The notes under the pieces: generated by a model
Databases searched by the model: none
What the model was told of the DNA's origin: nothing
Seen by the model: the letters and a program-made list of their open reading frames with translations, nothing else
Part shown: in pieces, positions 13,300 to 40,922 of the stretch
Layout: the number at the start of each line of letters is the position of its first letter
Position numbering within the stretch: position 1 is the first letter of the stretch
From: Mycoplana dimorpha
GTDB taxonomy: Bacteria > Pseudomonadota > Alphaproteobacteria > Rhizobiales > Rhizobiaceae
Assembly: GCF_003046475.1 (NCBI RefSeq)
Contig: NZ_PZZZ01000003.1
Coordinates: 558,001-622,000, forward strand
Reading direction: 5' to 3'
Length of the DNA stretch: 64,000 bases
Program-made: the position numbers and the translations under genes

Positions 13300-13617
13300 A
13301 TGGTGATTGAGATGACGGAGAAATCCGCCGTTCAAATTTCTTATGAGGACCAGGGGCACAAGGGCCGCTTTGTCGCCCGCATTGGCGGATTCGAGGGCGA
13401 AGGCGAACTGACCATCTCGAAGGTCTCGGATGCGCTGGTCATCGCCGATCACACCCTTGTTCCCGACACGTTGCGCGGCACGGGCGCCGCTTCGGCGCTG
13501 GTAGGGGCGCTGATCACCGATGCTCGAGCCAAGAGTTATCGCATCGTGCCGCTCTGCCCCTTCGTACGCGCACAGTCACAGAAACATCCGGAGTGGTCTG
13601 ATGTCATTCAACATTGA
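13300..13617 (+). CDS. GNAT-type N-acetyltransferase domain protein
   Basis: A 105-residue member of the small YjdJ/NATD1 group of acetyltransferase-fold proteins (DUF4440-free, one domain). The acetyl-CoA loop region is LVPDTLRGTGAASALVGALI and the end has RIVPLCPFVRAQSQKHPEW, a family signature. The acceptor is unknown. ATG 13312 (MTEKSAVQ) is an alternative start. Its 3' end overlaps the DoxX gene by 17 bases, showing tight operon organisation. Confidence 0.85.
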   Translation: MVIEMTEKSAVQISYEDQGHKGRFVARIGGFEGEGELTISKVSDALVIADHTLVPDTLRGTGAASALVGALITDARAKSYRIVPLCPFVRAQSQKHPEWSDVIQH

Positions 13618-14023
13618 TGCAGGCGGCGCACTCTCGATAGCAATACTGTTCCTCGCGCATCTCGGGCTCTGCGCGGCCTATATCCAGGGCGGCCTTGTCA
13701 AGCTAACCGATTTCCCCGGTGCAGTCGCCGAGATGGCTCACTTCCGGCTGGCCCCGCCCGCCCTGTTCGCCGTTTTGGTGATCGCGCTGGAACTGATCGC
13801 CTCGGCGATGGTGATGACGGGCTTCCTGCGCTGGCTGGGTGCACTGGCGCTTGCCGGGTTCACGCTGATGTCCACCCTGATCGCGCTGCGGTTCTGGGAG
13901 CAGCCCGCAGGCGAGGCGCGGCACGCGGACGCGAATGCCTTTTTCGAACATCTCGGTCTGGCCGGAGGATTCCTGCTTGTCGCGTGGCTGGATCTTGTCC
14001 GGACCGCGACCCTCGACCTGTGA
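13601..14023 (+). CDS. DoxX-family membrane protein
   Basis: A 140-residue inner-membrane protein with four hydrophobic segments (SIAILFLAHLGLCAAYIQGG, LFAVLVIALELIASAMVM, LGALALAGFTLMSTLIAL, GLAGGFLLVAWL). The pattern GGLVKLTDF after the first helix is typical of DoxX proteins, which are linked to quinone- or thiol-based redox functions. ATG 13601 lies within the end of the GNAT gene. A longer in-frame opening from 13520 would double the overlap and is unlikely. Confidence 0.85.
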   Translation: MSFNIDAGGALSIAILFLAHLGLCAAYIQGGLVKLTDFPGAVAEMAHFRLAPPALFAVLVIALELIASAMVMTGFLRWLGALALAGFTLMSTLIALRFWEQPAGEARHADANAFFEHLGLAGGFLLVAWLDLVRTATLDL

Positions 14024-14058
14024 CGAAAGCAAACACAGCACCCGCAAGGAGAACAGCA

Positions 14059-15909
14059 ATGTCCGCGGAAGACCTAATCATCGTCAATGCCAAGATCACG
14101 ACGCTCGACCGGCAGAACCCCTCGGCCGAGGCCGTGACGATCCGCGACGGTAAGTTCCTCGCAGTCGGCTCCGAGGCCGAGGCGCGCACGGCCGCGCCTG
14201 AGGCGACCGTGATCGACGCGAAGGGCCGTCGACTGATCCCCGGCCTAATCGATAGCCACATCCATCTGATCCGCGGCGGGCTGAACTACAATATGGAGCT
14301 TCGCTGGGACGGCGTACCGTCGCTTTCCGAAGCGATGGCGATGCTGAAGCGCCAGGTGGATCGTACTCCTGCCCCACAATGGGTGCGCGTGGTGGGCGGT
14401 TTCACCGAGCACCAGTTTGCCGAAAAGCGCCTGCCGACGCTGGAAGAGCTGAACGCCGTCGCACCCGATACGCCGGTCTTTATTCTGCATCTCTACGACC
14501 GGGCGCTGCTGAACGCCGCAGCGCTGCGGGTCGTCGGTTATACAAAGAACACGCCGAACCCGCCGGGCGGAGAGATCGTGCGCGATGCGAGAGGCAACCC
14601 CACAGGCCTGCTGCTGGCGCAGCCCAATGCGACGATCCTTTATTCGACGCTGGCCAAGGGGCCGAAACTCGACCCCGATTATCAGATCAACTCTACGCGG
14701 CATTTCATGCGCGAGTTGAACAGTCTCGGCGTCACCTCGGCCATCGACTCGGGCGGTGGATTCCAGAACTATCCCGATGACTACGCCATCATCGAAAAGC
14801 TGCATGCCGATGGTCAACTGACCGTGCGGATTAGCTACAACCTCTTCACCCAGAAGCCCAAGGACGAACTGTCCGATTTCGCCTCCTGGGCGAAGCAGGT
14901 CAGCCCCGGTCAGGGCGACGATACCTATCGCCATAACGGCGCGGGCGAGATGCTGGTCTATTCCGCCGCGGATTTCGAGGATTTTCGTATCGAACGACCC
15001 GAGATGCCGGCGGACATGGAGGCCGATCTGGAGCCGGTGATCCGCCTGCTTGCCGAGAACCGATGGCCTTGGCGCCTGCATGCCTCCTACGACGAGACAA
15101 TTTCGCGCGCGCTCGACGTCTTCGAGAAGGTGAACCGGGACGTACCCCTGGAAGGCATCAACTGGTTCTTCGACCACGCGGAGACGATCAGCGACCGGTC
15201 GATCGATCGGGTCGCCGCGCTTGGCGGCGGGATTGCCGTTCAGCACCGGATGATGTTTCAGGGCGAGTATTTTATTGAACGTCACGGCGCCAAGGCCGCG
15301 GAGAATACCCCGCCGATCCGACGGATGCTGGAAGCGGGCCTGCCAGTTGGCGCGGGCACCGATGCCACGCGGGTAGCCAGCTACAACCCCTGGGTTTCGC
15401 TGTCCTGGCTGGTGACCTCGCAGACGCTGGGCGGCACGCGGCTTTATCCGGCCGCCAATCGGCTGGACCGGGAAACCGCGCTGCGGCTCTGGACCGAGGC
15501 GAATACGTGGTTTTCCAGCGAAGAGGGCAAGAAAGGGCAGATCAAGAACGGTCAGCTTGCCGACCTTGCCGTGCTCTCGGACGATTATTTCGCTGTGCCC
15601 GAGGCCGAGATCGTGCACCTGCGCTCGGTTCTGACGGTTCTGGGCGGCAAGGTCGTGCATGGGGAGGGCGATTACGGCCCACTCGCTCCTGCACTGCCCG
15701 CGCCAATGCCCGACTGGTCTCCCGTCGCGACTTTCGGAGGTTACTACAGGACGCCAGAGACGCAGGCGAAGCTGGCGATGAGCTGCGGTTGTTCGCAAAG
15801 TTGCGGAGTGCATGGGCACGATCATGCAGCGGCACTAGGCGCGAATGTCCCCACTTCAGACGCCCGCAGCTTTTGGGGCGCCTTTGGCTGCGGCTGCTGG
15901 GCCGTGTAG
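14059..15909 (+). CDS. YtcJ-like amidohydrolase with Cys/His-rich tail
   Basis: A 616-residue metal-dependent hydrolase of the amidohydrolase superfamily (Amidohydro_3, YtcJ-like). It has the metal-binding HxH in LIPGLIDSHIHLIRGG, a histidine in FFDHAETISD, another in VQHRMMFQGE and the late aspartate in GAGTDATRVASYNPW. ATG 14059 follows AAGGAG. The last 50 residues are unusual: CGCSQSCGVHGHDH and GCGCW give six cysteines and three histidines in a short tail, perhaps a metal-binding appendage. The substrate is unknown; operon partners suggest small amides or cyclic compounds. Confidence 0.88.
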   Translation: MSAEDLIIVNAKITTLDRQNPSAEAVTIRDGKFLAVGSEAEARTAAPEATVIDAKGRRLIPGLIDSHIHLIRGGLNYNMELRWDGVPSLSEAMAMLKRQVDRTPAPQWVRVVGGFTEHQFAEKRLPTLEELNAVAPDTPVFILHLYDRALLNAAALRVVGYTKNTPNPPGGEIVRDARGNPTGLLLAQPNATILYSTLAKGPKLDPDYQINSTRHFMRELNSLGVTSAIDSGGGFQNYPDDYAIIEKLHADGQLTVRISYNLFTQKPKDELSDFASWAKQVSPGQGDDTYRHNGAGEMLVYSAADFEDFRIERPEMPADMEADLEPVIRLLAENRWPWRLHASYDETISRALDVFEKVNRDVPLEGINWFFDHAETISDRSIDRVAALGGGIAVQHRMMFQGEYFIERHGAKAAENTPPIRRMLEAGLPVGAGTDATRVASYNPWVSLSWLVTSQTLGGTRLYPAANRLDRETALRLWTEANTWFSSEEGKKGQIKNGQLADLAVLSDDYFAVPEAEIVHLRSVLTVLGGKVVHGEGDYGPLAPALPAPMPDWSPVATFGGYYRTPETQAKLAMSCGCSQSCGVHGHDHAAALGANVPTSDARSFWGAFGCGCWAV

Positions 15910-16012
15910 CGCCGTCAGCATTGTCGACCTGGGTATGAGCGGCAAGGGCGCCTCACCCGCCTTCACAACATGCAGACGGTGCGAACCCATTTTCCGCCGG
16001 AAAGGAGCCGAG

Positions 16013-17599
16013 ATGTCTCTCCAGGATACACCGCCGCCCGCCAAGGGCCCGCTGAATTTCCCGGTCTTCCGGGCACTCTGGATTGCCACGATCATATCGA
16101 ACATAGGCACCTGGATGCATGATGTCGGCGCTGCCTGGCTGATGATCTCGTTGTCGCCCAGCCCGCTTTTCGTGGCGCTGGTGCAGGCGGCGACGACCCT
16201 GCCGATGTTCCTGCTGGCGCTGCCCGCCGGGGCCATGGCCGACATCGTAGACCGGCGGAAAATGCTGCTGGCGGCGCAGATCCTCGGCCTTGCGGCGGCT
16301 GCGGTCCTCGCCTTTCTGACCTTCCGAGAACTGACCACCCCCTGGGTGCTGCTTGGCGCCACCTTCGTGCTGGGCCTCGCAGCAGCGCTCAGCGCGCCGG
16401 TGTTCCAAGCCATCGTCCCGGAACTGGTGGACAAGCCCGCCCTGCCTGACGCAGTGGCGCTGAACAGCCTCGGCGTGAACATCTCGCGCGCCATCGGTCC
16501 GGCGCTTGGCGGGGTGATCGTGGCGGTTGCTGGCATTCCGGCAGTTTTCGCGCTCAACGCCCTGTCGGTTCTGGCGGTGCTGATCGTACTCGTCACATGG
16601 CAACGCGCGCATACCGCTCGCAATTTGCCACCCGAACATTTCTTCGGCGCGCTTCGAGCGGGCTATCGCTATGCGCGGCATTCGTCGGCGATGAGGTTGG
16701 TTCTGGTCCGCACCCTGGGCTTCTTTCTGTTCGGCAGCGCGCTCTGGGCGATGCTCCCGCTGGTAGGTCGACGTGAACTTGGGCTGGATGCGGCGGGCTA
16801 TGGCGCGCTTCTGGGCTGCATGGGCGCCGGTGCCATTGTCGGCGCACTGCTTCTGAAGCGACTGCGCAAGAAGGTTGCAGCGAACACGACCTCGATCTGG
16901 GCGACGCTGCTGTTCGCGTCTTCGACGCTTGCACTGGCGCTGGCGCCGAATGGCTGGCTAGCTGGGGCGGTGATGTTTGTCGCAGGTCTCGCCTGGATCG
17001 GCATGTTGACCTCGCTGAATGTGGCGGCGCAGATGGCCTCGCCCGGTTGGGTCAAGGCCCGCGCGCTCGCGGTCTACCTACTGGTGTTTCAGGGCGCGAT
17101 GACGGGCGGCAGCATTCTCTGGGGGGCGATTGCGAGCCGCTCCAGCGTGACCGGCGCCCTGACGATTGCCGCTGCAGGCCTGATGCTGACGATCCTGCTG
17201 GCGCTGCGCTGGCGGCTGCCAAAGGATACGGTGACCGATCTCGCGCCTTCGAACCACTGGGCCGAGCCTGTAGTCGCGATTCCGCTTGCCGATGACCGCG
17301 GCCCCGTGCTGGTCGAGATCGAATACCGCATCGCCCCGGAGCGACAGGCTGATTTCACCGCCGCGCTGCGTCGCTTCCGCTCAGTGCGGCAGCGCGACGG
17401 CGCAATCCGCTGGGACATCTGGGAGGATGTGGCCGAACCGGGACGAGTGGTCGAGAGCTTCGTCGTGGAAAGCTGGATCGAGCATCAGCGCCAGCATGCG
17501 CGCGTCACCCGTACCGACGCGCTGGATCAGGAACTGCTGAACGCCTTCCACATCGGCGGCCAATCCCCTGCCGTCCGCCACCTGCTGCGGCCGCTGTGA
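16013..17599 (+). CDS. MFS_3-family exporter with C-terminal ABM-like domain
   Basis: A 528-residue transporter. Residues 1-410 form about 11-12 membrane helices of the MFS_3 (EntS-like) efflux group, with FRALWIATIISNIGTWMHDV near the start and DRRKMLLAAQILGL in the helix 2-3 loop. The last 100 residues (PVLVEIEYRIAPERQADF, RWDIWEDVAEPGRVVESFVV) form a soluble domain resembling antibiotic-biosynthesis-monooxygenase folds, common in this family. ATG 16013 has AAAGGAG upstream; a longer frame adds an implausible cysteine-rich stretch. It likely exports a product or toxic substrate of the operon. Confidence 0.88.
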   Translation: MSLQDTPPPAKGPLNFPVFRALWIATIISNIGTWMHDVGAAWLMISLSPSPLFVALVQAATTLPMFLLALPAGAMADIVDRRKMLLAAQILGLAAAAVLAFLTFRELTTPWVLLGATFVLGLAAALSAPVFQAIVPELVDKPALPDAVALNSLGVNISRAIGPALGGVIVAVAGIPAVFALNALSVLAVLIVLVTWQRAHTARNLPPEHFFGALRAGYRYARHSSAMRLVLVRTLGFFLFGSALWAMLPLVGRRELGLDAAGYGALLGCMGAGAIVGALLLKRLRKKVAANTTSIWATLLFASSTLALALAPNGWLAGAVMFVAGLAWIGMLTSLNVAAQMASPGWVKARALAVYLLVFQGAMTGGSILWGAIASRSSVTGALTIAAAGLMLTILLALRWRLPKDTVTDLAPSNHWAEPVVAIPLADDRGPVLVEIEYRIAPERQADFTAALRRFRSVRQRDGAIRWDIWEDVAEPGRVVESFVVESWIEHQRQHARVTRTDALDQELLNAFHIGGQSPAVRHLLRPL

Positions 17600-17622
17600 A
17601 CGTTTGAGCGAAGGAGAGCACC

Positions 17623-18558
17623 ATGAGCTGGAACCCCACGCAAACCCCTTATTGCCCCGAGGCCAGCGGCCTCGATGCGATCGAGACCCTCATCATCCCG
17701 CGCAGCCGCGATCTCGGCGGTTTCGAAGTGCGCCGTGCGCTGCCCGCCCCAAAACGGCAAATGGTCGGCCCTTTCATCTTCTTCGACCAGATGGGGCCGG
17801 CAGAGTTTCTGACCGGCGGCGGCATCGACGTGCGGCCGCATCCTCATATCGGTCTTGCCACCGTGACCTATCTTTACGAGGGTGCGTTTCACCACCGCGA
17901 CAGCACGGGGGCCGACCAGATGGTCTACCCCGGCGAGGTGAACTGGATGATCGCCGGCACTGGCGTCACCCATTCCGAACGCACCAGCGAGGAGATGCGC
18001 CGCCGGCCCGGCACTGCTTTCGGAATCCAGACCTGGGTTGCATTGCCGGACCACGCGGAAGACACCACGGCGAGTTTCGAGCATCACGGCCGCGAGGCTC
18101 TGCCCTTCCTCGAAGACGAGGGCAAACAGGTCCGCCTGATCCTGGGCGCAGCCTGGGGCGCACGCGCGCCGGTCAAGACCTTCACCGAGACCTTCTATGC
18201 CGACGTGGCTCTGGCTGCGGGCGCAAAATTGCCATTGCCCGACGATCACGAAGATCGCGGCGTCTATGTCGTCGAGGGCAGTATTCTTGTCGCCGGGACC
18301 AGTTTCGCTGCAGGGCAGATGATGGTGTTCCGCCCTGGTGACCGGATCAGCCTGACCGCCGGTGAACGCGGCGCGCGGCTGATGGTTCTGGGCGGCGAAA
18401 CGATGAACGGGCCACGCTATATTTCGTGGAATTTCGTCGCATCGTCGCAAGAGAAGATCGATGCCGCGAAAGAGGCCTGGCGCCAGGGCGACTTTGAGCA
18501 TGGTCGCTTCCGCCTGCCTCCCGGCGATGAGGCGGAGTTCATTCCGCTACCCGAATAG
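17623..18558 (+). CDS. pirin-family protein
   Basis: A 311-residue bicupin pirin. The N-terminal domain has the metal ligands RPHPHIGLATVTYLYEGAF and later HSERTSEE. Bacterial pirins include quercetinase-type dioxygenases and redox-responsive partners; which applies here is unknown. GGAG lies ahead of ATG 17623, 23 bases after the MFS stop. Its last 33 codons and the following sequence are duplicated near 19.7 kb, so this operon end has been rearranged. Confidence 0.92.
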   Translation: MSWNPTQTPYCPEASGLDAIETLIIPRSRDLGGFEVRRALPAPKRQMVGPFIFFDQMGPAEFLTGGGIDVRPHPHIGLATVTYLYEGAFHHRDSTGADQMVYPGEVNWMIAGTGVTHSERTSEEMRRRPGTAFGIQTWVALPDHAEDTTASFEHHGREALPFLEDEGKQVRLILGAAWGARAPVKTFTETFYADVALAAGAKLPLPDDHEDRGVYVVEGSILVAGTSFAAGQMMVFRPGDRISLTAGERGARLMVLGGETMNGPRYISWNFVASSQEKIDAAKEAWRQGDFEHGRFRLPPGDEAEFIPLPE

Positions 18559-18695
18559 CTGAAGTGTTCAAAGCACAGGTTCCGGCTGGTGCTCTGTGAG
18601 GCCAATTTCCCCATCGCGCGACGCCAGTGCGGGCCGGGCTGTCGAACAATGTTCGTCGACATATCCATCCACAACTACGACAAGAGGACGAGAAA
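18461..18695. repeat. ~230-bp imperfect direct repeat, copy 1
   Basis: This copy spans the last 33 codons of the pirin gene and the spacer up to the first base of the RidA start codon. It recurs at 19667-19894 with scattered substitutions and small indels. It contains ATTCCGCTACCCGAATAG, GGTTCCGGCTGGTGCTCTGTG and GTCGAACAATGTTCGTCGAC in both copies. Confidence 0.92.
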
Positions 18696-19093
18696 TGACT
18701 AAACGCCAAGCAATCTTTCCCGCAAACAGGCATGCTCTTTACGAAGAACATGGCTATTCCGCAGCGATCCGATCAGGCGATTTGCTTTTTGTTTCGGGGC
18801 AAGTCGGCAGCCTTAACGATGGCACACCCGAACCCGATTTGGAACGCCAGGTCCAACTGGCCTTCGACAACCTCAAGGCTACACTCGACGCCGCAGGCTG
18901 TACCTTCGACGATGTCGTGGACGTCACGACGTTCCACACGGACCCGGAAAACCAGTTCGCTGCTGTCATGGCGGTCAGGCAAAGGAACTTCACCCAAGCG
19001 CCTTACGCGAACTGGACAGCCATTGGGGTGAACTGGCTTGCCGGTTTCGATTTCGAGATCAAGGTCATCGCACGCATACCAGAGAGCAAGTAG
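18695..19093 (+). CDS. RidA-family protein (YjgF/YER057c/UK114)
   Basis: A 132-residue Rid-superfamily protein with the trimeric fold signature (SGDLLFVSGQVG, DLERQVQLAFDNLKATLDAA, VVDVTTFHTD). Canonical RidA hydrolyses reactive enamine/imine intermediates using an arginine in a late RS/RT motif; here that position reads PYANWTAIGV, so the usual arginine seems absent and canonical deaminase activity is doubtful. It may belong to another Rid subgroup. The start follows AGAGGACGAGAA, where the upstream repeat ends. Confidence 0.88.
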   Translation: MTKRQAIFPANRHALYEEHGYSAAIRSGDLLFVSGQVGSLNDGTPEPDLERQVQLAFDNLKATLDAAGCTFDDVVDVTTFHTDPENQFAAVMAVRQRNFTQAPYANWTAIGVNWLAGFDFEIKVIARIPESK

Positions 19094-19293
19094 TCATAAG
19101 GCTCTCACTGATCCGGTGGCATAGCCAATCCACCGCCGAAGCGCATGATTTTCGGTCCCGGACGGGCGGATCGGCCACCGGTTGCCTCAAGGACTGACGC
19201 GCGGGTTCCGAGATTCGATCGGGCGTTCCACGTTCACCGCCACAGCTTCGCCACGCTCCAATATCCACAGCCAATAATGAAGGAGACAGTCCT

Positions 19294-19644
19294 TTGACCA
19301 TTCACAAGTTTGCCATTGCCGACGCTCCGCTGGAACGCTCGCCGGGGCAGGTGGGCGACATCTTCGTCGGCAACGTCCTCGACCAGCGTCACGGCGGGCC
19401 AGTGACGATCGGCTTCGGGCGCTATGGGCCGAGCCAGATCTTGGAGGAGACCATGGCCGTGCACGACACGATGGTGATCCTGGAAGGAAAGATCACCGTC
19501 GCCGACGACCAAGGATCGGTGACGGCCGGACCCGGGGAGGTCATCGCCATGCAGAAAGGCGATAAGGTGACGATCCGTTCCCACGAGGATGGTGCTGTGA
19601 CGGCTTATGTCACCTACCCTCATTGGCAAGAGCCGGACGCTTGA
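19294..19644 (+). CDS. EutQ-like cupin protein
   Basis: A 116-residue single-domain cupin. The barrel shows GRYGPSQILEETMAVHDTMV and VILEGKITVADDQGSVTAGP GEVI-type turns, as in EutQ-like proteins. The start is TTG 19294 with AGGAG eight bases upstream; no ATG fits. It may bind a metal or a small ligand. It is the last gene of the redox run and lies between the two copies of the pirin-tail repeat. Confidence 0.82.
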   Translation: MTIHKFAIADAPLERSPGQVGDIFVGNVLDQRHGGPVTIGFGRYGPSQILEETMAVHDTMVILEGKITVADDQGSVTAGPGEVIAMQKGDKVTIRSHEDGAVTAYVTYPHWQEPDA

Positions 19645-19666
19645 GCGCCCAAGGTGGCGGTGGGGC

Positions 19667-19894
19667 ATGCCGCGAAAGAGGCCCTGGCGCAATGGCGACT
19701 TTGAACATGGTCGCTTACGCCTGCCTCCCGGCGATGAGGCGGAGTTCATTCCGCTACCCGAATAGCTGGAGTGATCACAGGTTCCGGCTGGTGCTCTGTG
19801 ATGCCCATATCCCCATCGCGCGACGCCAGTGCGGCCGGGCTGTCGAACAATGTTCGTCGACATCCATCCACAACTACGAAAAGAGGACGAGAAA
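19667..19894. repeat. ~230-bp imperfect direct repeat, copy 2 (pirin tail remnant)
   Basis: Second copy of the sequence at 18461-18695. Here the pirin codons are not attached to a gene, and the sequence after the repeat differs (ACACAGG in place of the RidA start). It is therefore a scar of a duplication or insertion that placed ridA and the cupin gene between the copies. Confidence 0.92.
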
Positions 19895-19954
19895 CACAGG
19901 ACAATTCAGAGCCGGAATTATTTTACCCATCGGCCATACGATGGTGGTGATCCG

Positions 19955-21157
19955 ATGACACGACGCCTGAAAGACGCCCGGATCCTGATGTACAGCCATG
20001 ACACGTTCGGCCTGGGCCACCTGCGGCGTTGCCGCACCATCGCCCATTCGCTGGTCGAGGATTTCCGCGGCCTCAACGTGCTGATCATCTCCGGCTCGCC
20101 GATCGCCGGCGCCTTCGATTATCGTGCCCGCGTCGATTTCGTGAAGATCCCGAGCGTCATCAAGCTGCGCAACGGCGAATACACCTCGATGGAGCAGCAC
20201 ATCGACCTGCACCAGACACTGAAGATGCGGCAGTCGATCATCCGGCATACCGCCGAAAGCTTTCAGCCGGACATCTTCATCGTCGACAAGGAGCCGATGG
20301 GCCTCCGCGGCGAGGTCGAGGACACGCTCGCCTATCTCAAGGCCCGCGGCACGACGCTGGTTCTCGGCCTGCGTGACGTCATGGATGCGCCCCACCTGCT
20401 CGACGCCGAATGGAAGCGCCACGATGTCATGGGCAAGATCGCCAGGTATTACGACAAGGTCTGGGTTTACGGGCCCCCGGATTTCTACGATCCGCTGATC
20501 GGCCTCGACGTGCCGCCCGTCGTCCGCGCCCGCATGAACTTTGTCGGTTTCCTGCAGCGCCGCGTCTCGGAGGAGCACGAGTCGGGACATCGTCCGAAGG
20601 GGAATTATATCCTGGTCACCACCGGCGGCGGCGGCGACGGGGCTGCCCTCATCCATGACGTCGTCCACGCCTACAAGGAAGACCCCGAACTGACGCACAA
20701 GGCGCTGATCGTGCTCGGCCCCTACATGCCGGCGGCGCAGCGCCAGAAGCTCGTGCGCAAGGCTTCGAAGATCCCCCACGTCGAGGTGATCGAGTTCGAC
20801 AATCGCATGGAGGAACTGATCGCCGGCTCGATCGCGGTCGTCGCCATGGGCGGCTACAACACCTACTGCGAGATCCTGTCGTTCGACAAGCCGGCGCTGG
20901 TCGTTCCCCGCGTCAACCCGCGCGAGGAGCAGTTGATCCGGGCGCGCCGGGCCTCGAAACTCGGGCTGGTTCAGATGCTGTCGCCGGAGGTGTCGCGCCA
21001 ACCGAAGGTGCTGGCCGAGGTGCTGAAGGCCCTGCCCGACCGCGCGCCGCCGTCCCAGACCTCACAGGCACTGAGACTTGAAGGGCTGCCGCACATCTCC
21101 CAGATCGTCGGCGACCTGCTTGAGACCCGGGACAACATGCGGCTTGCCGTCGTATAA
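19955..21157 (+). CDS. GT28/MurG-like glycosyltransferase A
   Basis: A 400-residue GT-B-fold glycosyltransferase. The N-terminal motif MYSHDTFGLGHLRRCRTIA (11-29) is the GxGHLRR nucleotide-sugar/acceptor loop, and the C-terminal domain has TTGGGGDGAALI, AVVAMGGYNTYCEIL and PRVNPREEQ, as in MurG/GT28 relatives. ATG 19955 is preferred to an upstream in-frame start inside repeat copy 2. It begins a three-gene glycosyltransferase set; a surface polysaccharide or glycolipid is the likely product, but no acceptor can be named. Confidence 0.85.
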   Translation: MTRRLKDARILMYSHDTFGLGHLRRCRTIAHSLVEDFRGLNVLIISGSPIAGAFDYRARVDFVKIPSVIKLRNGEYTSMEQHIDLHQTLKMRQSIIRHTAESFQPDIFIVDKEPMGLRGEVEDTLAYLKARGTTLVLGLRDVMDAPHLLDAEWKRHDVMGKIARYYDKVWVYGPPDFYDPLIGLDVPPVVRARMNFVGFLQRRVSEEHESGHRPKGNYILVTTGGGGDGAALIHDVVHAYKEDPELTHKALIVLGPYMPAAQRQKLVRKASKIPHVEVIEFDNRMEELIAGSIAVVAMGGYNTYCEILSFDKPALVVPRVNPREEQLIRARRASKLGLVQMLSPEVSRQPKVLAEVLKALPDRAPPSQTSQALRLEGLPHISQIVGDLLETRDNMRLAVV

Positions 21158-21169
21158 GGCTGAACCAAA

Positions 21170-22414
21170 GTGACATCACGGAAGAAAATCGCGGTTATCC
21201 TGAAGGGCTATCCGCGGCTGTCGGAAACCTTCATCGCCCAGGAACTCCTGGGGCTGGAAAGGGCCGGCTTCGACCTGACGCTCATTTCCATGCGTCATCC
21301 GACCGACACCAAGCGCCATCCCGTCCATGGCGAGATCCGTGCGCCCGTGCACTATCTGCCGGAATACCTGTATCAGGAGCCGTTGCGCGTCATTCGCGGT
21401 CTCGTCAAAAGCGCCCGCCTGCCCGGCTTCAAGGCCGCCTTCCGCGCCTTCCTCAAGGACCTCCGCCGTGACCTGACGCCGAACCGCTTCCGGCGCTTCG
21501 GCCAGGCCGCGGTGCTTTGCGCCGAATGGCCGGCGGGAGTGGGCTGGCTGCACGCCCACTTCATCCACACGCCCGCCTCCGTGACGCGCTACACGAGCCT
21601 GATAAACGGCATCCCCTGGTCCTGCTCGGCGCACGCCAAGGACATCTGGACCTCGCCCGACTGGGAACTCGAAGGCAAGCTTTCCCATACCCGCTGGACG
21701 GTGACCTGCAACCAGACCGGTTTCGACCGCCTGCGCGGGCTGGCGAACGGTAAAAACCACGTCCACCTCAGCTATCACGGTCTCGATCTCGACCGTTTCG
21801 GCCGCTTCGACGGCGCGCATTCGATGCGCGACGGATCGAACCCTGACGAGCCGGTGACGGTCGTCAGTGTCGGCCGCGCGGTCGACAAGAAGGGCTACGA
21901 CGTCCTGCTCAAGGCACTGTCGCTGCTGCCCGCCAATCTTTCCTGGCGGTTCGTCCATATCGGCGGCGGACCGAATCTTGCGGCGATGAAGCAGTTCGCC
22001 GAGACCCTCGGCATCGCCGGCCGGATCACCTGGAACGGCGCGCTCGACCAGCAGGAGGTGCTCGACCACTACCGCCGCTGTGATCTGTTTGCGCTGGCCT
22101 GCCGCATCACCCCGGACGGCGACCGCGACGGCCTGCCGAACGTGCTGGTGGAGGCGTCGAGCCAGCGGCTCGTATGCGTTTCGACCAACATTTCCGGCAT
22201 TCCGGAGCTTCTGCAGGACGGCGAGAACGGCTTGGTCGTGCCCCCGGAGGACCCGAAGGCGCTGGCGGCGGCGCTCGAAACACTGATCCGCGATCCGGCG
22301 CTGCGCACGCGCCTGGGTGAAGCGGCTGAACAGCGCGTTCGCGCCGAGTTCGACCACCACACCAGCATCCGGCAGCTGAAGACGCTGTTCGAAACCGAGT
22401 GGCAGGCAGCCTGA
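21170..22414 (+). CDS. GT4-family glycosyltransferase
   Basis: A 414-residue GT-B glycosyltransferase. It opens KKIAVILKGYPRLSETFIAQ, has HAHFIHTPASVTRY, and a GT4 C-terminal domain with VVSVGRAVDKKGYDVLLKAL and the catalytic-type DGDRDGLPNVLVEASSQ (Ex7E region), then ISGIPELLQDGENGLVVPPED. The start is GTG 21170, 12 bases after the previous stop. Its own stop overlaps the next start (TGATG). Confidence 0.9.
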   Translation: MTSRKKIAVILKGYPRLSETFIAQELLGLERAGFDLTLISMRHPTDTKRHPVHGEIRAPVHYLPEYLYQEPLRVIRGLVKSARLPGFKAAFRAFLKDLRRDLTPNRFRRFGQAAVLCAEWPAGVGWLHAHFIHTPASVTRYTSLINGIPWSCSAHAKDIWTSPDWELEGKLSHTRWTVTCNQTGFDRLRGLANGKNHVHLSYHGLDLDRFGRFDGAHSMRDGSNPDEPVTVVSVGRAVDKKGYDVLLKALSLLPANLSWRFVHIGGGPNLAAMKQFAETLGIAGRITWNGALDQQEVLDHYRRCDLFALACRITPDGDRDGLPNVLVEASSQRLVCVSTNISGIPELLQDGENGLVVPPEDPKALAAALETLIRDPALRTRLGEAAEQRVRAEFDHHTSIRQLKTLFETEWQAA

Positions 22415-23610
22415 TGAGCGACGTCGAAAAGCCTGCCCCGCGCGTCTTCTTCTACGTCCAGCATCTGCTCGGAATCGGTCATCTCGCCCGCGCCAGCCGC
22501 ATCGCCCGCGCCCTCGTCGAGGACGGCTTCGACGTGACCATGGTCACGGGGGGAACGCCGGTGCAGGGTTTTCCGGGTCCCGGAATACGGCATGTCGAAC
22601 TGCCGCCGGTGGCCGCAGGCGATGCCGGGTTCTCGGGCCTCGTCGATCTCGCCGGCAATCCGGTCGACGACGCCTTCCGGGATCATCGCCGCCGCCGCCT
22701 GCTGGCCGCTTTTCGCGAAACCACGCCGGACGTCGTCATCATCGAGGCCTTTCCGTTCGGTCGCCGCCAGGTGCGCGTCGAGCTGCTGCCGCTGCTCGAC
22801 GAAATCGCCGCAATGCAGGAGCGGCCGATCGTGCTGTCGTCGCTGCGTGACATCCTGCAGGAGCGAAGCAAGCCCGGCCGGGACGAAGAAAGCGTTGCGC
22901 TTGCGACCAGCCGGTTCGACGGCATCCTCGTCCATGGCGATCCCTCCTTCGCAAGGCTGGAGGACAGCTTCTCGCTGGCGGGCGCGATTGCCGATCGGGT
23001 CATTTATACCGGCCTTGTCGCCGCTCCGCCGCCCGCCCCGACGTCCGAGCGCTTCGACATCCTTGTCTCGGCTGGCGGCGGAGCCGTCGGCGCAACGGTG
23101 AACGAGGCGGCCATCGCCGCCGCCCGCGCCCTACCGCAAGCGCTCCGCTGGTGCCTGATCGCAGGGCCCAACCTGCCGCAAGCCGCCTTTGACACCGCCG
23201 TCGCAACGACGCCGGACAATGTCCACGTCACGCGATTCCGTCCCGATTTTCCGGGCCTTCTTGCAGCCGCGCGGCTCTCCGTTTCGCAGTCCGGATACAA
23301 CACCGTGTGCGACATTCTTCGCGCCGGCTGCCGGGCCGTCTTCGTGCCGTTCACGGCCGGGGGGGAAACCGAGCAGACCGCCCGCGCCTTGCGCCTGGAA
23401 AGGCTCGGGCTCGCCACGGTGGTTTCGGGAAGCACGCTCTCGCCGGAAAGCCTGACCCGGGCGATCGCGACAGCAATGGAGCGGCCGATGCGACCCATCC
23501 CGCCGCTCGACCTCGATGGCGCGGCGAAGACCTCGACAATCCTGCGCCGCCTGCTGGCCGGAACCCGCGTATCGGACCTCGCGCGCGAAAGCGCTGCGCC
23601 CCAAGTATGA
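22414..23610 (+). CDS. GT28/MurG-like glycosyltransferase B
   Basis: A 398-residue paralogue of the gene at 19955: the start RVFFYVQHLLGIGHLARASR and the C-terminal LSVSQSGYNTVCDILRAGCR mirror GLGHLRRCR and MGGYNTYCEIL. DILVSAGGGAVGATVNEAAI is the glycine-rich donor loop. The start overlaps the GT4 stop, so the last two genes are translationally coupled. Two related GT28-like enzymes flanking one GT4 enzyme suggest sequential addition of similar sugars. Confidence 0.87.
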   Translation: MSDVEKPAPRVFFYVQHLLGIGHLARASRIARALVEDGFDVTMVTGGTPVQGFPGPGIRHVELPPVAAGDAGFSGLVDLAGNPVDDAFRDHRRRRLLAAFRETTPDVVIIEAFPFGRRQVRVELLPLLDEIAAMQERPIVLSSLRDILQERSKPGRDEESVALATSRFDGILVHGDPSFARLEDSFSLAGAIADRVIYTGLVAAPPPAPTSERFDILVSAGGGAVGATVNEAAIAAARALPQALRWCLIAGPNLPQAAFDTAVATTPDNVHVTRFRPDFPGLLAAARLSVSQSGYNTVCDILRAGCRAVFVPFTAGGETEQTARALRLERLGLATVVSGSTLSPESLTRAIATAMERPMRPIPPLDLDGAAKTSTILRRLLAGTRVSDLARESAAPQV

Positions 23611-23810
23611 ACTGTCGCGATTGGCTGCTATCGTGGCCAGCACCCTGCAATCAATTCGAAAACGCATTTCACTGCGTAATGACGAGGCTCAGGGCTGCGT
23701 TTCGATGGCGCGCCTTTTCCGGAGCGTTTGAGATGCTATCGTGATCGCGCAACCGTCACGCCGCGCGGATAGCGACGAGGCCCGCTCGCCATAGACGCGC
23801 GTGCAGTAAC

Positions 23811-23867
23811 TTAATTGGCGAACTTATAGATCGTCTCGTGGCTGATCGACACTGGATGGCGCTCCAG
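23811..23867 (-). pseudogene. IS30-type transposase fragment
   Basis: The minus strand reads LERHPVSISHETIYKFAN before a stop. SHETIY is the highly characteristic motif of IS30-family transposases, where it precedes the catalytic core. Only about 18 residues remain, so the element is inactive. Confidence 0.5.
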
Positions 23868-23890
23868 CCGCATCCGTCGCTCGCGCCGGT

Positions 23891-23989
23891 GCGCTTGGCC
23901 TTCCGCTCATGGTCGCGATCATCGGCGGCAGCTTCGGACGGTTCCGCCCGCTTGTCGACCTTTACCGTGAAGCCGGCGGACGCACAGCA
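23891..23989 (+). pseudogene. LLM-class flavin-dependent oxidoreductase fragment
   Basis: The plus frame reads ALGLPLMVAIIGGSFGRF and RPLVDLYREAGGR, matching a late segment of luciferase-like monooxygenases, where an IIGG...FRPLVDLYR pattern is usual. Nothing of the flavin-binding N-terminus survives. Confidence 0.6.
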
Positions 23990-24008
23990 GTGGCCGCAAT
24001 TTGATCCT

Positions 24009-24400
24009 CGACTGGCTCCCCGACTACGCGCAATCGTGCGCGGCTGGTCTGGCCATCCGGACGAAATGATGGTCGGTATCGACGCCGGCTTCGCGGCCGC
24101 AATCGATACCGGCTACCATTCCAAGGCAGGCACGGAGTCAATCCGCTCGCCCACACTTCCAATCTGCGCATCTCGCGGCTGCGGCCGGCTACGGCGTGCC
24201 TTCGGTCTTCCTCGCTGGCGACGAAGGAATCTGTGCGGAGGCGCGGGCCATGGCGGGGGGCCTTGCGACGGTGGAAACGCTGGACGGAAAGGGGCTTGCA
24301 TCGACGTCCATCTCGCCCGCCTGATCCGGCGTCTCATCCGAAGTGGTCATCGAGTTCAACACGCCAAGCGAAGCCTATCGCGCAAGCTGGACACAATGCG
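24009..24400 (+). pseudogene. M55 D-aminopeptidase (DppA-like) remnant
   Basis: Three pieces in shifting frames match M55 peptidases, which cut D-amino-acid peptides: MMVGIDAGFAAAIDTGYHSK, then YGVPSVFLAGDEGICAEARA (with GLATVETLDGKGLASTSISP), then IEFNTPSEAYRASW. The zinc-site GYH and the GDEGIC loop are visible. Frameshifts and a stop at 24322 show it is dead. It ends at the second copy of the AraC-tail repeat. Confidence 0.7.
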
Positions 24401-24476
24401 CCATTGAAAGTCACTGCTACGCGACCAAGCGCACCGGATCACGAACGGCCCGGCGGTAGTCGGAAGGGCTCATGTG
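24401..24476. repeat. 76-bp direct repeat, copy 2 (orphan araC tail)
   Basis: Same sequence and orientation as 7711-7786 (three mismatches). Here it is not attached to an AraC gene; it ends at the start codon of the next gene, where sequence similarity stops abruptly. Confidence 0.9.
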
Positions 24477-28554: not shown

Positions 28555-29724
28555 ATGAATGCCAAAGTCAAGCCAGCCAAACATAGTGCCGCTGGGCCTT
28601 ACCTCGGTTTTGCTCTTCAGCCGGTGCGGGCCTTTCATCACCTTCTGACAAGCCCGCGCGGATCATCGGTATCTTTGGAGTTCCAGGACGATGTTGCAGT
28701 CCATTATCCAAACGGGTCTCTCCGTCTCGAACAGACGAAAAGTGCGCTCAAACAGAATCCGATCGCGGATTGGGCGCCGGATCTCTGGAACACATTCCAC
28801 AACTGGTTGAAGATGCTTCAGTCCGACGCGATCAAGGCGGATGCGACCGAATACCGCCTCTATGTAGCGCCGCCGAAAGCTGGAGCCTTCGTAGAAGCAC
28901 TCACCGCTGCTACCGATGCTGCCGCCGCCAAGTCCATCACCGCAATCATACGCTCGAAGCTGGCGAAGCTGAGAAAAGACCCGGCTTGCCTAGAAAAGCT
29001 GCAATCCTTCCTCAATGCCACGGAGGAACAGCAGACAGCGATCATCACCAATTTTGCGCTGGAACCTTCCGCGGCTGATCCGCTCGAAGCGATCCGGGAT
29101 ATCCTGCGGCCAAGCGTCGCTGACATTCATCTCGACATCCTAATCAAATCGGGAATTGGCCAAGCCAAGCAGGCCTATGACCGCCTCATTCAGCGCGGCG
29201 AAATACCAATCCTTGGCGTGGACGCATTCCGGAAAGAGTTTCATGCGTTCGTCCGGCAGAACAACATGCCCGGCCTCTTGACATCGCTGGCCGCGGCGCC
29301 AGACGACACGCTGGTCGCGGATTTTGCCTCCACACGGCCGTTTTTCATCCGACAACTGGAGCTAGTCGAGGCGACCAATGATGACCTTCTGCGTGCGGTA
29401 AGCGACTATCTGCGAACTTCAGCGGACAAGGCCGATTGGGCTGATCGCGGGCTGATCTTTACAGGAAGCCTCGACACCTGGGACGATGACCTCGTACGGC
29501 GGCATCGTATGATTCGCGGGGACATCGCCGATCTACATGGCGACAAGTCGGCGACGACCCGGGGACGGCTTGTCTATCGCCAATGCGCGCAACATCAAGC
29601 CCCTCTCGAAGGCCGGGCCGTGCCCGGGCATTTTGTGCACGGCAGCTTCAACGACCTTGCCGACCGTCGGTGGATCGGGTGGCATGGCGACTTCGAGGCG
29701 CTGCTCGACGGTGACGTCCAATGA
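28555..29724 (+). CDS. ABC-3C effector: Cap4-like dsDNA nuclease domain
   Basis: A 389-residue protein. Residues 20-65 carry the restriction-endonuclease-fold core of the Cap4-like nuclease domain: Glu42, Asp45/Asp46 (LEFQDDVAVH) and QTK with Lys62. The C-terminal part has RGRLVYRQCAQHQAPLEG, VPGHFVHGSFNDLADRRWIG, WH, the pattern of the C-terminal domain of ABC-3C effectors. ATG 28555 follows GGAGGGG. Its stop overlaps the next start (ATG 29721). In the ABC-three-component systems described by Aravind and co-workers such effectors are unleashed by the SMC-like ATPase on foreign DNA. Assignment is from motifs and gene order. Confidence 0.8.
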   Translation: MNAKVKPAKHSAAGPYLGFALQPVRAFHHLLTSPRGSSVSLEFQDDVAVHYPNGSLRLEQTKSALKQNPIADWAPDLWNTFHNWLKMLQSDAIKADATEYRLYVAPPKAGAFVEALTAATDAAAAKSITAIIRSKLAKLRKDPACLEKLQSFLNATEEQQTAIITNFALEPSAADPLEAIRDILRPSVADIHLDILIKSGIGQAKQAYDRLIQRGEIPILGVDAFRKEFHAFVRQNNMPGLLTSLAAAPDDTLVADFASTRPFFIRQLELVEATNDDLLRAVSDYLRTSADKADWADRGLIFTGSLDTWDDDLVRRHRMIRGDIADLHGDKSATTRGRLVYRQCAQHQAPLEGRAVPGHFVHGSFNDLADRRWIGWHGDFEALLDGDVQ

Positions 29725-30233
29725 CCCTGGCTGCTGTGCGTGCGGACCTAACAGAACTCGAGATAGTCCAGAATCCAGCCATCGGCGCCTATCTGATCTG
29801 GAACTTCGCGCTCGGGTACCAGGAGGACGGAACCGCTTCCGTCTCTTTCTCGCTTGCCTTTCTTGTGCTTCCGATGCTGTTGCATCGCCCAACATTCGAC
29901 GAGGTGGCCGCAACGCGCAAAGCGTCTGGTCTCCCGCTCTTCGCAGCCAAATTCGACAAGGAGCGCGAGGCCCTGATGGAGTTGCACGGTCGCGCGTTAC
30001 AACTCCGCGCGCTCAGCCTCCAGTCTATCGGAGTGGCGGCCACCTCGCGGATCATCAGGATTGACTATGAGCACGCGACGCTGCGCGCCCATTCCCTCGA
30101 TCTGCTCGGCGTGAAAAAACCGAAAATCCCAGAGCGATTGAATGGCTTTTCGAGCGCCGCCGACAAGCTCGGTGCCTGGTTCTCCAAGCTTGCCATCCCC
30201 CAGATCGCATCAACACTCAGGATCGACTTCTAA
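29721..30233 (+). CDS. ABC-3C middle component
   Basis: A 170-residue protein with the middle-component opening (EIVQNPAIGAYLIWNFALGY, residues 13-32), in which NPxxGAxLLWxF is conserved, and a helical remainder (LPMLLHRPTFDEVAATRKAS, FDKEREALMELHGRALQLRA). It bridges effector and ATPase in ABC-3C systems; the exact role is not established. Overlaps the effector stop by four bases and its own stop ends exactly one base into the ATPase start. Confidence 0.8.
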   Translation: MTLAAVRADLTELEIVQNPAIGAYLIWNFALGYQEDGTASVSFSLAFLVLPMLLHRPTFDEVAATRKASGLPLFAAKFDKEREALMELHGRALQLRALSLQSIGVAATSRIIRIDYEHATLRAHSLDLLGVKKPKIPERLNGFSSAADKLGAWFSKLAIPQIASTLRIDF

Positions 30234-32191
30234 TGTATTTCCAATTGAGAAAACTGATCCTGTGGCCGCGGCACGATGGAGCGCCGCGGATCGTTGAGTT
30301 TCACCCGGGTGTCGTGAACGTTATCAGCGGCGCGTCGAAGACCGGCAAGTCTGCAGTTATCCCTATCATCGACTATTGTCTCGCTGCGGACAAATGCGCC
30401 ATCCCCGTCGGCGTCATCCGCGAGAACTGCAACTGGTTCGGCGTACTGATCGACACGATCGAAGGGCAAAAGCTTCTTGCGCGCCGCGAGCCAGGAGATC
30501 AGCAAAGCACCAGTGACATGGTGATGATTGAGGGTGACAAGATCGAGATCCCGAACCGCATCAAGGAGAAGACCCATACTGCGGCAACGGTCAAGGCGAT
30601 GCTCAATCGTCTCGCGGGCCTTACCAGTCTCGACTTCGAGCCCGATTCCGAATCGAACTTCAAGTCGCGGCCGAGCTTTCGCGACTTAATGGCGTTCACC
30701 TTTCAGCCGCAGAACATCGTCGCGAATCCCGACGTCATGTTCTTCAAGGCGGACACGACCGAGCATCGCGAAAAGCTGAAGACAATTTTCCCGTATATTT
30801 TACAAGCGGTTACAGGCGATGTCCTGCAGTCCCGTTTCGAACTCGACCGACTGAGCCGGCTCTTGCGCCGCAAGGAGAATGAACTCCGTGCGCTGATGTC
30901 AGCCGGCAATGCCTGGCGGCTCGAGGCGCAGTCCTGGCTGAGGCAGGCGGTCGAGTTCGGCCTCCTGCCTTCTGAGGGAGGGATTCCAACTGAATGGGCC
31001 GACATCGTCGATCTCCTCCGCGCCGTCGTCGAGGCCAATAGCGAAGCGGCGCATCCCAAGCTTGCCGGGATCGATGCCGCCCTCACCAGACTACAGGAAC
31101 TGCGGACCAACGAGACGGCGGTTGCGGCTGAACTCACGCAGCTCAGGCAACGGCTGAGCGAGCTAAGGCGTTTGATCGATAGCAGCGACGCCTATGGCAG
31201 TGCGCTGCGCATTCAGCGTGACCGCCTCGCCCTTTCCGATTGGCTCAAACAACTTTCTTCCGCTGATGGTCCGCAGGACCCAGTCGCACTGCTTGCAGAT
31301 GGAGATCGCAGCAAGATCGAGCAATTGAGCGACGCGTTGGCGGCGCTTGAGGTAAGGCTTCGGACACACCCGAGCATCTCCGATACGCTCGACAAGGAGG
31401 TCCTACGGCTCCGGGGCGCGGCAGAGAACGTGCTCGTTCGCCTAAACGAGATCCGCCAGGAAATCGGTATGCTTGAACGCAATTCGGTGCAAGCCAAGCA
31501 GGCGATTGACCGGTTCGATCGGATGGAGCGCTTTCTCGGCCGCCTTGAGCAGGCGCTCCTGCTCTATGACCGCACTGACCAGTCTGCAGGGCTGCGTCAG
31601 GATATCGACGGCATCAAGCAGCAGATCGAGGAACTGCAGAGGCGTGTCTCTGAGACCGAGATCGCCCGAAAGTTGCGCAACGCTCTTGACAGTATCGAAC
31701 TAACCACTGGCCGCCTCATTCCTCAGCTTGACGCTGAATGGCCGGATGCACCGGTGCGGCTGATGATCGCCGATCTGACCGTGAAGGTCATTCGAGGTAC
31801 GCGCGACGACTTTCTATGGGAGATCGGCAGCGGGGCCAATTGGCTTGCTTACCATGTTGCATTGACGCTCGCGCTCCAGCGGTTCTTCCTTGATCTGCCG
31901 CACCACCCGGTCCCGGGTCTGCTAATCTACGACCAGCCAAGCCAAGTCTATTTCCCTCGCCGCACGGCGGGTGAGGAGGCGTCCGATCCCGTCTCCTGGC
32001 GCGACGAGGATGTGGTCGCGGTGCGCAAAGTGTTCTCGTTGCTCGGACAGCAAGCAATTGCCGCTAGGAGGCGCCTCCAGATCATCGTGCTCGATCATGC
32101 TGATGAAGAGGTCTGGGGCGACCTGGAAGGCGTCGTCCTCGCGGAACAATGGCGGGATCAGGCTCTCGTACCCTATGATTGGCTGGGCTGA
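30233..32191 (+). CDS. ABC-3C SMC-like ATPase (DUF3732)
   Basis: A 652-residue SMC/RecN-like ATPase. The Walker A is GASKTGKS (33-40). A long coiled-coil middle (about 200-490) separates it from the C-terminal ATPase half: GSGANWLAYHVAL (signature-like), Walker B with LLIYDQPSQ where Asp567 is followed by Gln568 rather than the usual Glu, and an H-loop LDHAD (His622). ATG 30233 begins at the last base of the preceding stop. In ABC-3C systems this subunit is thought to sense DNA and gate the nuclease. The Gln after Walker B is seen in the DUF3732 family, so it is probably not a defect. Confidence 0.88.
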   Translation: MYFQLRKLILWPRHDGAPRIVEFHPGVVNVISGASKTGKSAVIPIIDYCLAADKCAIPVGVIRENCNWFGVLIDTIEGQKLLARREPGDQQSTSDMVMIEGDKIEIPNRIKEKTHTAATVKAMLNRLAGLTSLDFEPDSESNFKSRPSFRDLMAFTFQPQNIVANPDVMFFKADTTEHREKLKTIFPYILQAVTGDVLQSRFELDRLSRLLRRKENELRALMSAGNAWRLEAQSWLRQAVEFGLLPSEGGIPTEWADIVDLLRAVVEANSEAAHPKLAGIDAALTRLQELRTNETAVAAELTQLRQRLSELRRLIDSSDAYGSALRIQRDRLALSDWLKQLSSADGPQDPVALLADGDRSKIEQLSDALAALEVRLRTHPSISDTLDKEVLRLRGAAENVLVRLNEIRQEIGMLERNSVQAKQAIDRFDRMERFLGRLEQALLLYDRTDQSAGLRQDIDGIKQQIEELQRRVSETEIARKLRNALDSIELTTGRLIPQLDAEWPDAPVRLMIADLTVKVIRGTRDDFLWEIGSGANWLAYHVALTLALQRFFLDLPHHPVPGLLIYDQPSQVYFPRRTAGEEASDPVSWRDEDVVAVRKVFSLLGQQAIAARRRLQIIVLDHADEEVWGDLEGVVLAEQWRDQALVPYDWLG

Positions 32192-32489
32192 CGAGAGACC
32201 CCATTTGCCTACCGAATGTCCGCTATTCGAGTTTCCTTCCCGAAAGTTGCCTGTGGGCTTTCGGCCCAAATCGGCCTTTCATGCAAGCCGAGCCAATGAC
32301 CGCAAATGGCACGAAGCGGACAACGCCCGATCGCCAATTCGCCAGCCCCTCTTATAACACAGCATGTTGCATTGCATGTTGCATGGAGCAGCCGTCATCT
32401 TGTTGAAATGCCTGAAAATCAATGGAAGCATGTTGCAGCGGAATGCGACACGCTGCGAAACAAATTAACGGCTAAGCGCCTGATTTTAA
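32192..32489. other. gene-free stretch between ABC-3C operon and tRNA-Arg
   Basis: About 300 bases with no gene. It contains AATGACCGCAAATGGCACGA, a type of degenerate sequence common in rhizobial accessory DNA, and three copies of GCATGTTGCA, listed separately. Confidence 0.5.
32362..32437. repeat. three direct copies of GCATGTTGCA
   Basis: Exact copies lie at 32362-32371, 32374-32383 and 32428-32437; the first two are 12 bases apart. They sit 53 bases from the tRNA gene, where integrase/excisionase arm sites are commonly found in tRNA-integrated elements. Confidence 0.65.
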
Positions 32490-32566
32490 TGGTGATCCCG
32501 CCGCGATTCGAACGCGGGACCCCCAGATTAGGAATCTGGTGCTCTATCCTGCTGAGCTACGGGACC
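32490..32566 (-). tRNA. tRNA-Arg (anticodon CCT)
   Basis: Read on the minus strand the 77 bases form a complete cloverleaf: acceptor GGTCCCG paired with CGGGATC, D-arm GCTCAGC...GAGC, anticodon stem CCAGA/TCTGG around loop TTCCTAA (anticodon CCT), T-arm GCG TTCGAAT CGC, and an encoded CCA at the 3' end. The 3' end points toward the accessory region at lower coordinates, the usual orientation for an integration site. Confidence 0.95.
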
Positions 32567-39968: not shown

Positions 39969-40922
39969 CTAATCCGGCTTTTTTGCCTGTTTGGCAAGGG
40001 GGTGATGGTCCTGCACAAGCCGGTGCAGGCGTTCTTCGAGCACATGCGTGTAGATCTGCGTGGTCGCGATGTCCGAGTGGCCGAGCAGTTCCTGCACCGC
40101 CCGCAGGTCGGCGCCGTTCTGCAGCAGATGGCTCGCAAAGGCATGGCGCAGCACGTGCGGAGACAGTGTTGCCGCACGAATCCCCGCCCGCGAGGCGAGC
40201 GCCTTCAGGTCGCGGGCGAACACCTGACGCGGCAGGTATCCCTGCTTGCCGGCGGAGGGAAAGAGATAGGGGCTTTCCTCCGCATCCTCCTGTGCCGCGA
40301 CGTGGTCGGCAAGGGCGGCGCCGTAGGCCTGCAACGCCGTGACTGCCGTCCGCGACAGCGGCACCAGCCGCTCCTTGTTGCCCTTGCCCTTGATGACGAG
40401 GAACCGTCCGTCCTGCGAAAGCACGGTCGCCGGCAGCGACACGAGTTCGCTGACGCGCATGCCCGTGGCGTAGAGCAGTTCGACCAGGGCATGCATGCGC
40501 AGCCGCGGCAGGCGATCGGCGCCCGCGGCCCTTGCCTCCTCTTCCGCAAGCGCCAGCAGGCGCGTCACGTCGTCGACGGAGAGGGTCTTCGGCAGCGAAC
40601 GCTCCTTCTTCGGCGCGTCGAGGATTCCCGTCGGATCGTCGCCGCGCAGGCCCTCGGCGTAGAGGAACTTGTAGAACTGCCGGAGCGCCGAGAGCCGGCG
40701 GGCCTGCGAGGAGGCCTTGAGGCCCTGCCGCGCCAGGTTTCCGAGATAGGCGCGCAGGTCGTCCGCGGTCGCCTCGGTCATCTGCACCTGCCGCTGCAAG
40801 AGGAATGAGCGCGCATCTTCGAGGTCGCGCTCGTAGGAGGAGAGCGTATTTGCCGCAGCACCGCGCTCGGCGCTCATCATCTCAAGAAAGGCCTCGATCC
40901 GGCTCGCCGAACGGTCGGTCAT
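39969..40922 (-). CDS. xerD: tyrosine recombinase XerD
   Basis: A 317-residue site-specific recombinase that resolves chromosome dimers at dif with XerC. An N-terminal SAM-like domain ([20 protein letters not shown]) is followed by the catalytic residues: Arg in [13 protein letters not shown], HxxR in [14 protein letters not shown], His in [11 protein letters not shown] and Tyr in IYTHV. The start at 40922 overlaps the stop of a small membrane-protein gene. A longer in-frame opening reads across that gene and is not used. Confidence 0.95.

Follow-up and report, generated by a model that had tools for sequence, protein, structure and literature searches.

The question raised by this locus is what was inserted beside a lone tRNA gene and whether it can still leave. 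We analysed a 64-kb stretch of DNA from Mycoplana dimorpha (the window, G000:C3:558001-622000, where G000 is its own genome and a window coordinate equals the C3 position minus 558000), in which ARAGORN called a single tRNA, tRNA-Arg(CCT), close to three copies of GCATGTTGCA. An earlier note on this DNA had proposed that the tRNA and the repeats mark the border of a mobile island, with the repeats placed where integrase or excisionase arm sites are common. On the evidence given here and in Table 1, we consider it very likely that the island is a grounded phage-derived element sitting in tRNA-Arg(CCT), with the GCATGTTGCA repeats as arm-type sites of its integrase.

The tRNA lies on the minus strand, so its 3′ end faces left, towards the accessory block, as the earlier note had read it. 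When the genome was searched with window positions 32362-32566, the second copy of the tRNA 3′ end that the note had suggested looking for was found left of the window (attL): the 3′ half of the tRNA, identical at 45 of 45 bp and in the same orientation, 34.2 kb from the tRNA and 1.8 kb beyond the left edge of the window. Three weaker matches (72-83% identity) were returned by the same search. The two 45-bp copies diverge at the anticodon loop, and no tRNA was called at the attL locus. The element is thus bracketed by a direct repeat of the tRNA 3′ end, as is required of a tRNA-targeted element, and it carries an integrase gene beside one att site, the int stop codon lying 60 bp inside attL.

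Table 1. Features of the island and its borders. Coordinates are those of the window unless prefixed with C3.
Feature	Coordinates	Strand	Remarks
attL	C3:556238-556282 (window -1762 to -1718)		left of window; 45-bp direct repeat
Near arm, two worn sites	C3:556321-556340		outside window; one mismatch each
Tyrosine integrase gene (int)	C3:556342-557466	-	60 residues missing; outside window
Arc-like regulator	C3:557417-557734	-	left of window
Island, right 32.5 kb of 34.2-kb total	1-32489		left end outside window
64-aa protein gene beside int, 3′ part	1-66 (whole gene C3:557872-558066)	+	candidate excisionase or early regulator
Phage-type protein	299-1078	+	DnaD-like helicase loader among PHROG matches
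Serine recombinase (resolvase/invertase type)	2597-3562	+	
Cargo	4145-25084		MscS-type channel, SDR, AraC regulator, two-component genes, isochorismatases, amidohydrolase, MFS, pirin, glycosyltransferases, others
Lamassu-type genes	lmuA 28555-29724, lmuC 29721-30233, lmuB 30233-32191	+	
Far arm, outer pair, 12 bp apart (two of three GCATGTTGCA copies)	32363-32383	-	predicted arm-type
Third GCATGTTGCA copy	32428-32437	-	fits site consensus; off the family's standard place and orientation
Worn inner far-arm site	32444-32452	+	one mismatch
attR, core within intact tRNA	32490-32534	-	45-bp direct repeat
tRNA-Arg(CCT)	32490-32566	-	ARAGORN call

We then compared the site with relatives, as had also been suggested. 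The island was absent at the tRNA-Arg(CCT) site in all six congeners, and the core genes on both sides were kept in all six. The right flank, from the tRNA into an M20 peptidase gene, matched at 82-85% in each of them, which bears out the assignment of core genes to the right of the tRNA, and the left flank was present in each up to about L006:14270. Between the left flank and the tRNA lie about 240 bp in G003, 615 bp in both G004 and G006, 1.4 kb in G001 and 2.9 kb in G005, and in G002 the flank is 5.4 kb away from a tRNA remnant; in the island's own genome an extra 2.0 kb with a caspase-like gene separates the left flank from attL. These differing lengths among the seven genomes indicate that the insertion spot is variable. 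A 20-kb piece of the island (window 4001-24000) gave only partial matches elsewhere in the congeners. Altogether, the borders, the direct repeat and the absence of the island from the site in congeners can be read from the DNA itself, and they support tRNA-Arg(CCT) as the right border of the island.

Two observations concern the surroundings of the site. The caspase-like peptidase gene (L006:14412-15995, C3:554412-555995) lies just outside attL, between the island and a core gene, and the left-flank matches of all six congeners end before it. At the corresponding locus of G002 (L264, G002:C3:539001-546500) no tRNA was called and two pieces of the tRNA-Arg(CCT) 5′ half were found, so the gene seems to be broken there.

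The GCATGTTGCA repeats, which read TGCAACATGC on the other strand, lie 53-128 bases from the tRNA end, as previously noted. Exact copies were identified at 32362, 32374 and 32428 and nowhere else in the window, with 0.09 expected; none of 100 shuffles contained three exact copies, which ruled out chance repeats. When one mismatch was allowed, 10 matches were found in the window against 4.8 expected, and 4 of 100 shuffles also reached 10, indicating that degenerate copies elsewhere are uninformative.

Relatives of the integrase carry a site with the consensus (C/T)GC(A/G)ACATG, the reverse complement of the repeat. In 10 of 11 integrases, including the one studied here, a pair of these sites, spaced by 11 bp and with no more than one mismatch per site, follows or overlaps the int stop codon, and a tRNA 3′ fragment of varying identity follows the pair. 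In the eleventh (L015) the pair has two mismatches per site; a twelfth and more distant integrase (L016) was without the pair and was excluded from the arm-site comparison. Among 29 further genome loci, one of which (L162) repeats the L015 locus, a pair with at most two mismatches in total was found near the int stop in 11, with the 11-bp spacing in 10. The 18 loci without it mostly belong to more distant integrases, and also include the close L156, L157 and L166. We also used the best 80 of 111 confirmed viral-contig loci; 46 end too soon and one is without an ORF, and the pair was present in 22 of the 33 testable ones and in none of 3,300 shuffles. The flank of L261 is identical to that of L014, so this set is not wholly independent, and the shuffles in this and the 29-locus set preserve base counts only.

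On the tRNA side, 26 sites corresponded to 24 tRNA genes, which represent ten isoacceptors (Phe, Met, His, Thr, Cys, Gln, Arg-CCT, Arg-CCG, Arg-ACG and Arg-TCT). An outer forward pair, sought within offsets 81-150, starts 105-109 bp after the tRNA in eight genes, 128-132 bp after it in 15 and 121 bp after it in one, read in the tRNA sense, so that two distances account for 23 of the 24 far arms. The best inner reverse pair, sought within offsets 21-90, lies 68-70 bp before the outer pair in 19 of the 24 (0-4 mismatches of 18). In the island studied here, the outer pair starts at 107 and 119 without mismatch, and the inner part is reduced to one site at 38 with a mismatch and none at 49, with an extra copy in the opposite orientation at 53. 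Two of the four expected far-arm sites are thus not in standard form, and this far arm is one of five exceptions to the inner-outer spacing. As a separate observation, far arms beside tRNA-Arg(CCT) start at 107 in L107, L117 and L143 and at 132 in L139; the same tRNA occurs with either distance, which shows that the tRNA target does not set it.

Sequence motifs of arm type therefore stand on both sides of the core, partly worn in this island, and they are kept in register beside homologous integrases and tRNAs. This pattern indicates that the GCATGTTGCA repeats are almost certainly integrase arm-type sites, in keeping with the earlier note, except that the copy at 32428 is off the usual place and orientation of the family. 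The IHF consensus was matched perfectly in 5 of 24 far arms and not in this one, so a site for this bending protein next to the core remains a suggestion.

To see how far the motif reaches, we searched the pattern CATGTYGCR-N2/3-CATGTYGCR, with the pattern read backwards as the control. In 11 genomes selected for carrying the integrase it was found 23 times, and among 397 genomes sampled from the order 38 times, in 24 of them; the control gave 0 in both sets, so that a repeat common to these genomes at large was ruled out. The integrase (E up to 1e-40, at most four candidates scored per genome) was found in 33 of the 397. With its own genome set aside, 12 of 396 genomes carried both, 11 the motif only, 20 the integrase only and 353 neither (Fisher p=6.7e-9, from hand-counted lists, with G064 also in the first set). 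The paired motif goes with the integrase, though the association is incomplete. The two sets hold 56 distinct signature sites (23 + 38 less 5 shared), 51 of them with classified loci: 26 lie within 150 bp of an intact tRNA 3′ end, one of them close to integrase sequence as well, a further 9 lie at the 3′ end of an integrase, and 16 have neither beside them.

Further paired motifs were noticed in the same genome. One (L108, G000:C2:566271) is a second, complete far arm beside tRNA-Phe. The tRNA-Phe core has no second copy within 3 mismatches in this genome, nor is there a second member of the integrase family (family profile at 1e-5), so L108 is probably a relic of an earlier element. Two others (L122, G000:C5:374436; L124, G000:C8:26023) lie more than 1.5 kb from any tRNA, at loci that contain no sequence of a family integrase.

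We next turned to the integrase itself. Aligned to eight full-length relatives, it is without 60 contiguous residues, corresponding to residues 161-220 of L071; its Phage_integrase match spans profile positions 42-169 of 172, and the relatives match in two blocks. L012 and L068 were left out of these alignments, L070 is apparently the same record as L011, and ten distant loci (L072-L081) of the 15 integrase loci were unused. The missing block contains the box-I arginine (R215 in L071 numbering), which is invariant in all eight relatives, and in a profile of the eight it aligns with R225 of the Tn1549 Int (Lys in 6emz). The authors of PMC5871717 treat the R225K form as a catalytic, inactive mutant. 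The later motifs HxLRH, GH and Y are retained, but the complete set of catalytic residues expected of an active integrative element is broken by the missing arginine. The alignment suggests that the integrase is probably dead, and with 60 residues including the box-I arginine gone the island is probably grounded. The gap could also be an assembly error. The locus would thus qualify, from its sequence, as a tRNA-targeted integrative element whose integrase falls short of an active one; the border that had been proposed stands, on the 45-bp repeat, the integrase and the absence from all six congeners, and its mobility probably does not.

Amino-acid changes on this integrase were not in excess (25 vs 22, silent 35 vs 52, p=0.20), leaving a changed selection unsupported and indicating that the integrase may be recently lost or still of use. 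Structure models from shallow alignments had a mean pLDDT of 57 for this integrase and 66 for an intact relative; the catalytic part was poorer in the former but only moderate in the latter, so that the models lend weak support, and the N-terminus was modelled as three strands and a helix, as in an arm-binding domain. Two other family integrases, L012 (internal stop) and L068 (frameshift), are interrupted as well, so integrase loss may be common in the group. In the phage collection, all 1007 records matching the integrase were below 60% identity, and the best plasmid match, from Pseudochrobactrum, reached 58.5%. The named genera with relatives of the integrase are Pseudaminobacter, Jiella, Aliihoeflea and Shinella, all of the Hyphomicrobiales, and Mangrovicella, which was checked to belong there; the int flank of Mangrovicella recurs in G048, a genome of the same family.

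Based on these results, we propose that a temperate phage or phage-like element gave rise to the 34.2-kb island. Its lambda-type (arm-binding) tyrosine integrase would have recombined at some point within the 45-bp core, which spans the tRNA from its anticodon loop through its 3′ end. After insertion, a complete tRNA would have remained at the right border and part of a tRNA at the left one. In the circular form, the GCATGTTGCA repeats would be the far arm of attP, bound by the N-terminal domain of the integrase, and the pair at the int 3′ end would be the near arm on the other side of the core. Later, a 60-residue stretch that includes the box-I arginine would have disappeared from the integrase, and both the near arm and the inner far arm would have become worn, so that the island probably cannot excise by itself and may persist with its cargo and its Lamassu system.

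Alternatively, the island could still be mobile if another element, already resident in the cell or newly arriving, supplied an intact integrase of this family that acted on the island's arms and cores in trans. The arm motifs and the core are present; congener G001 carries an intact member of the family, as does Shinella sumterensis, where it adjoins the same tRNA-Arg(CCT) fragment. Against this, the near arm and the inner far arm are worn, and its own genome holds no second family member, none of its six other PF00589 matches (one of them in the core region, window 40032-40586) being matched by the family profile at 1e-5. We regard mobility in trans as unlikely.

The gene content bears on the origin of the island. 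Phage-type early genes stand beside int, as expected of a prophage. The 64-aa protein had no Pfam match and one weak PHROG of unknown function. Across 85 related integrase loci (80 of them the best 80 of 111 IMG/VR viral contigs), the 64-aa protein was found in 75, the Arc-like regulator in 43 and the DnaD-like protein in 5, which links the island to phages; these loci reach about 10 kb from int, so zeros for deeper genes mean little. The earlier note had placed phage, defence and degenerate genes left of the tRNA. Phage-like genes were indeed found at the extreme left and defence genes at the right end, but the middle is mostly metabolic and regulatory cargo, and the island consists mostly of cargo and not of degenerate genes. 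Lamassu systems are defined by adjacent lmuA and lmuB, with or without lmuC. Here lmuA (E 6e-39) and lmuB (3e-124) stand in one block of three adjacent genes with lmuC between them, and ABC-3C domains were matched in Pfam; the block resembles Lamassu, differing in its weak lmuC match (5e-8).

The large non-phage cargo would also suit an integrative conjugative or mobilizable element in place of a phage relic, and neither the Pfam scan of 38 island ORFs nor the PHROG scan of 10 ORFs revealed a phage structural gene. However, no relaxase, secretion or conjugation gene was found among the same 38 ORFs in Pfam (ORFs under 80 aa fell mostly outside the scan), and the neighbours of int are common to loci on viral contigs, which makes this reading improbable. 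We give similarly little credence to the repeats being operators of a regulator kept beside this integrase type: the small DNA-binding-type protein that so often accompanies the integrase would fit such a role, as would the overlap of one pair with the int stop region, but the sites flank the core at set distances from the end of the tRNA, which is where arm sites are expected, and the integrase N-terminus is modelled as a domain that would bind them. It is highly improbable that the layout (two-site near arm; four-site far arm with an inner reverse pair and an outer forward pair 68-70 bp away, at one of two tRNA distances) is a fixed docking code, constant while the tRNA core swaps among at least ten isoacceptors, on which an in-frame, catalytically dead integrase with an intact arm-binding part acts as a trans lock on the arms of its own island and on those of incoming relatives, irrespective of the tRNA that they target, as integration-level immunity beside Lamassu.

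Read as a grounded phage-derived element with arm-type sites, the island resembles several known systems. Lambda-type systems (PMC8138268) share with it the N-terminal arm-binding, core-binding and catalytic parts and accessory arm sites that flank a tRNA core, whereas here the catalytic part is interrupted and the arrangement of a near pair at the int stop, an inner reverse pair and an outer forward pair 68-70 bp away is specific to this integrase group. In Cluster K mycobacteriophages, according to PMC3203893, 11-bp arm-type repeat pairs, direct and inverted, flank the attP core, which is like the pairs in both orientations described here. There, Pixie and Tweety have the same core and do not share arm sequences, whereas here the arm motif is constant and the tRNA core varies among ten isoacceptors. 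Prophages and islands of Sinorhizobium meliloti are likewise alphaproteobacterial and inserted in tRNA 3′ ends, with a similar core length (46-bp attP at one hot spot) and an integrase type tied to the tRNA target; the sections of PMC11476347 and PMC12429752 at hand describe cores and not arm sites, and 'arm-type' and 'tRNA-Arg' have no occurrence in the former. Grounded prophages are also integrated phage-derived DNA unable to leave, but here seemingly only the early end is left. No description of the arm-site layout of this integrase group was found in the literature searched, which mostly lay outside subscription papers, and among the matches listed for the nine-letter motif in literature text all were apparently unrelated.

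For this genome, the analysis establishes where the island begins and ends, what it carries and why it is probably stuck. More widely, the arm layout makes it possible to locate both ends of many prophages and islands of Hyphomicrobiales from sequence alone, including those with a disrupted or missing integrase, and to predict which elements could recognise one another. Constant arms combined with changing tRNA cores offer a natural data set on how integrases switch target.

The cargo gave some minor observations. A cluster of three glycosyltransferase genes (window 19950-23585) is present elsewhere in all seven genus genomes. Identity with the island copy is 85.7% for the cluster of G002, 82.6% for the chromosomal copy in the same genome and 80.1-80.9% for those of G001, G005 and G006, and the chromosomal copy is 81.3% identical to that of G002, with G003 and G004 outside this comparison; these values fit, without proving, a transfer within the genus. 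Direct repeats of about 230 bp (18461-18695 and 19667-19894, 92%) were found in the cargo, as well as a 79-bp pair (7708-7786 and 24398-24476, 95%) whose members enclose 16.7 kb, possibly as the ends of a nested insertion.
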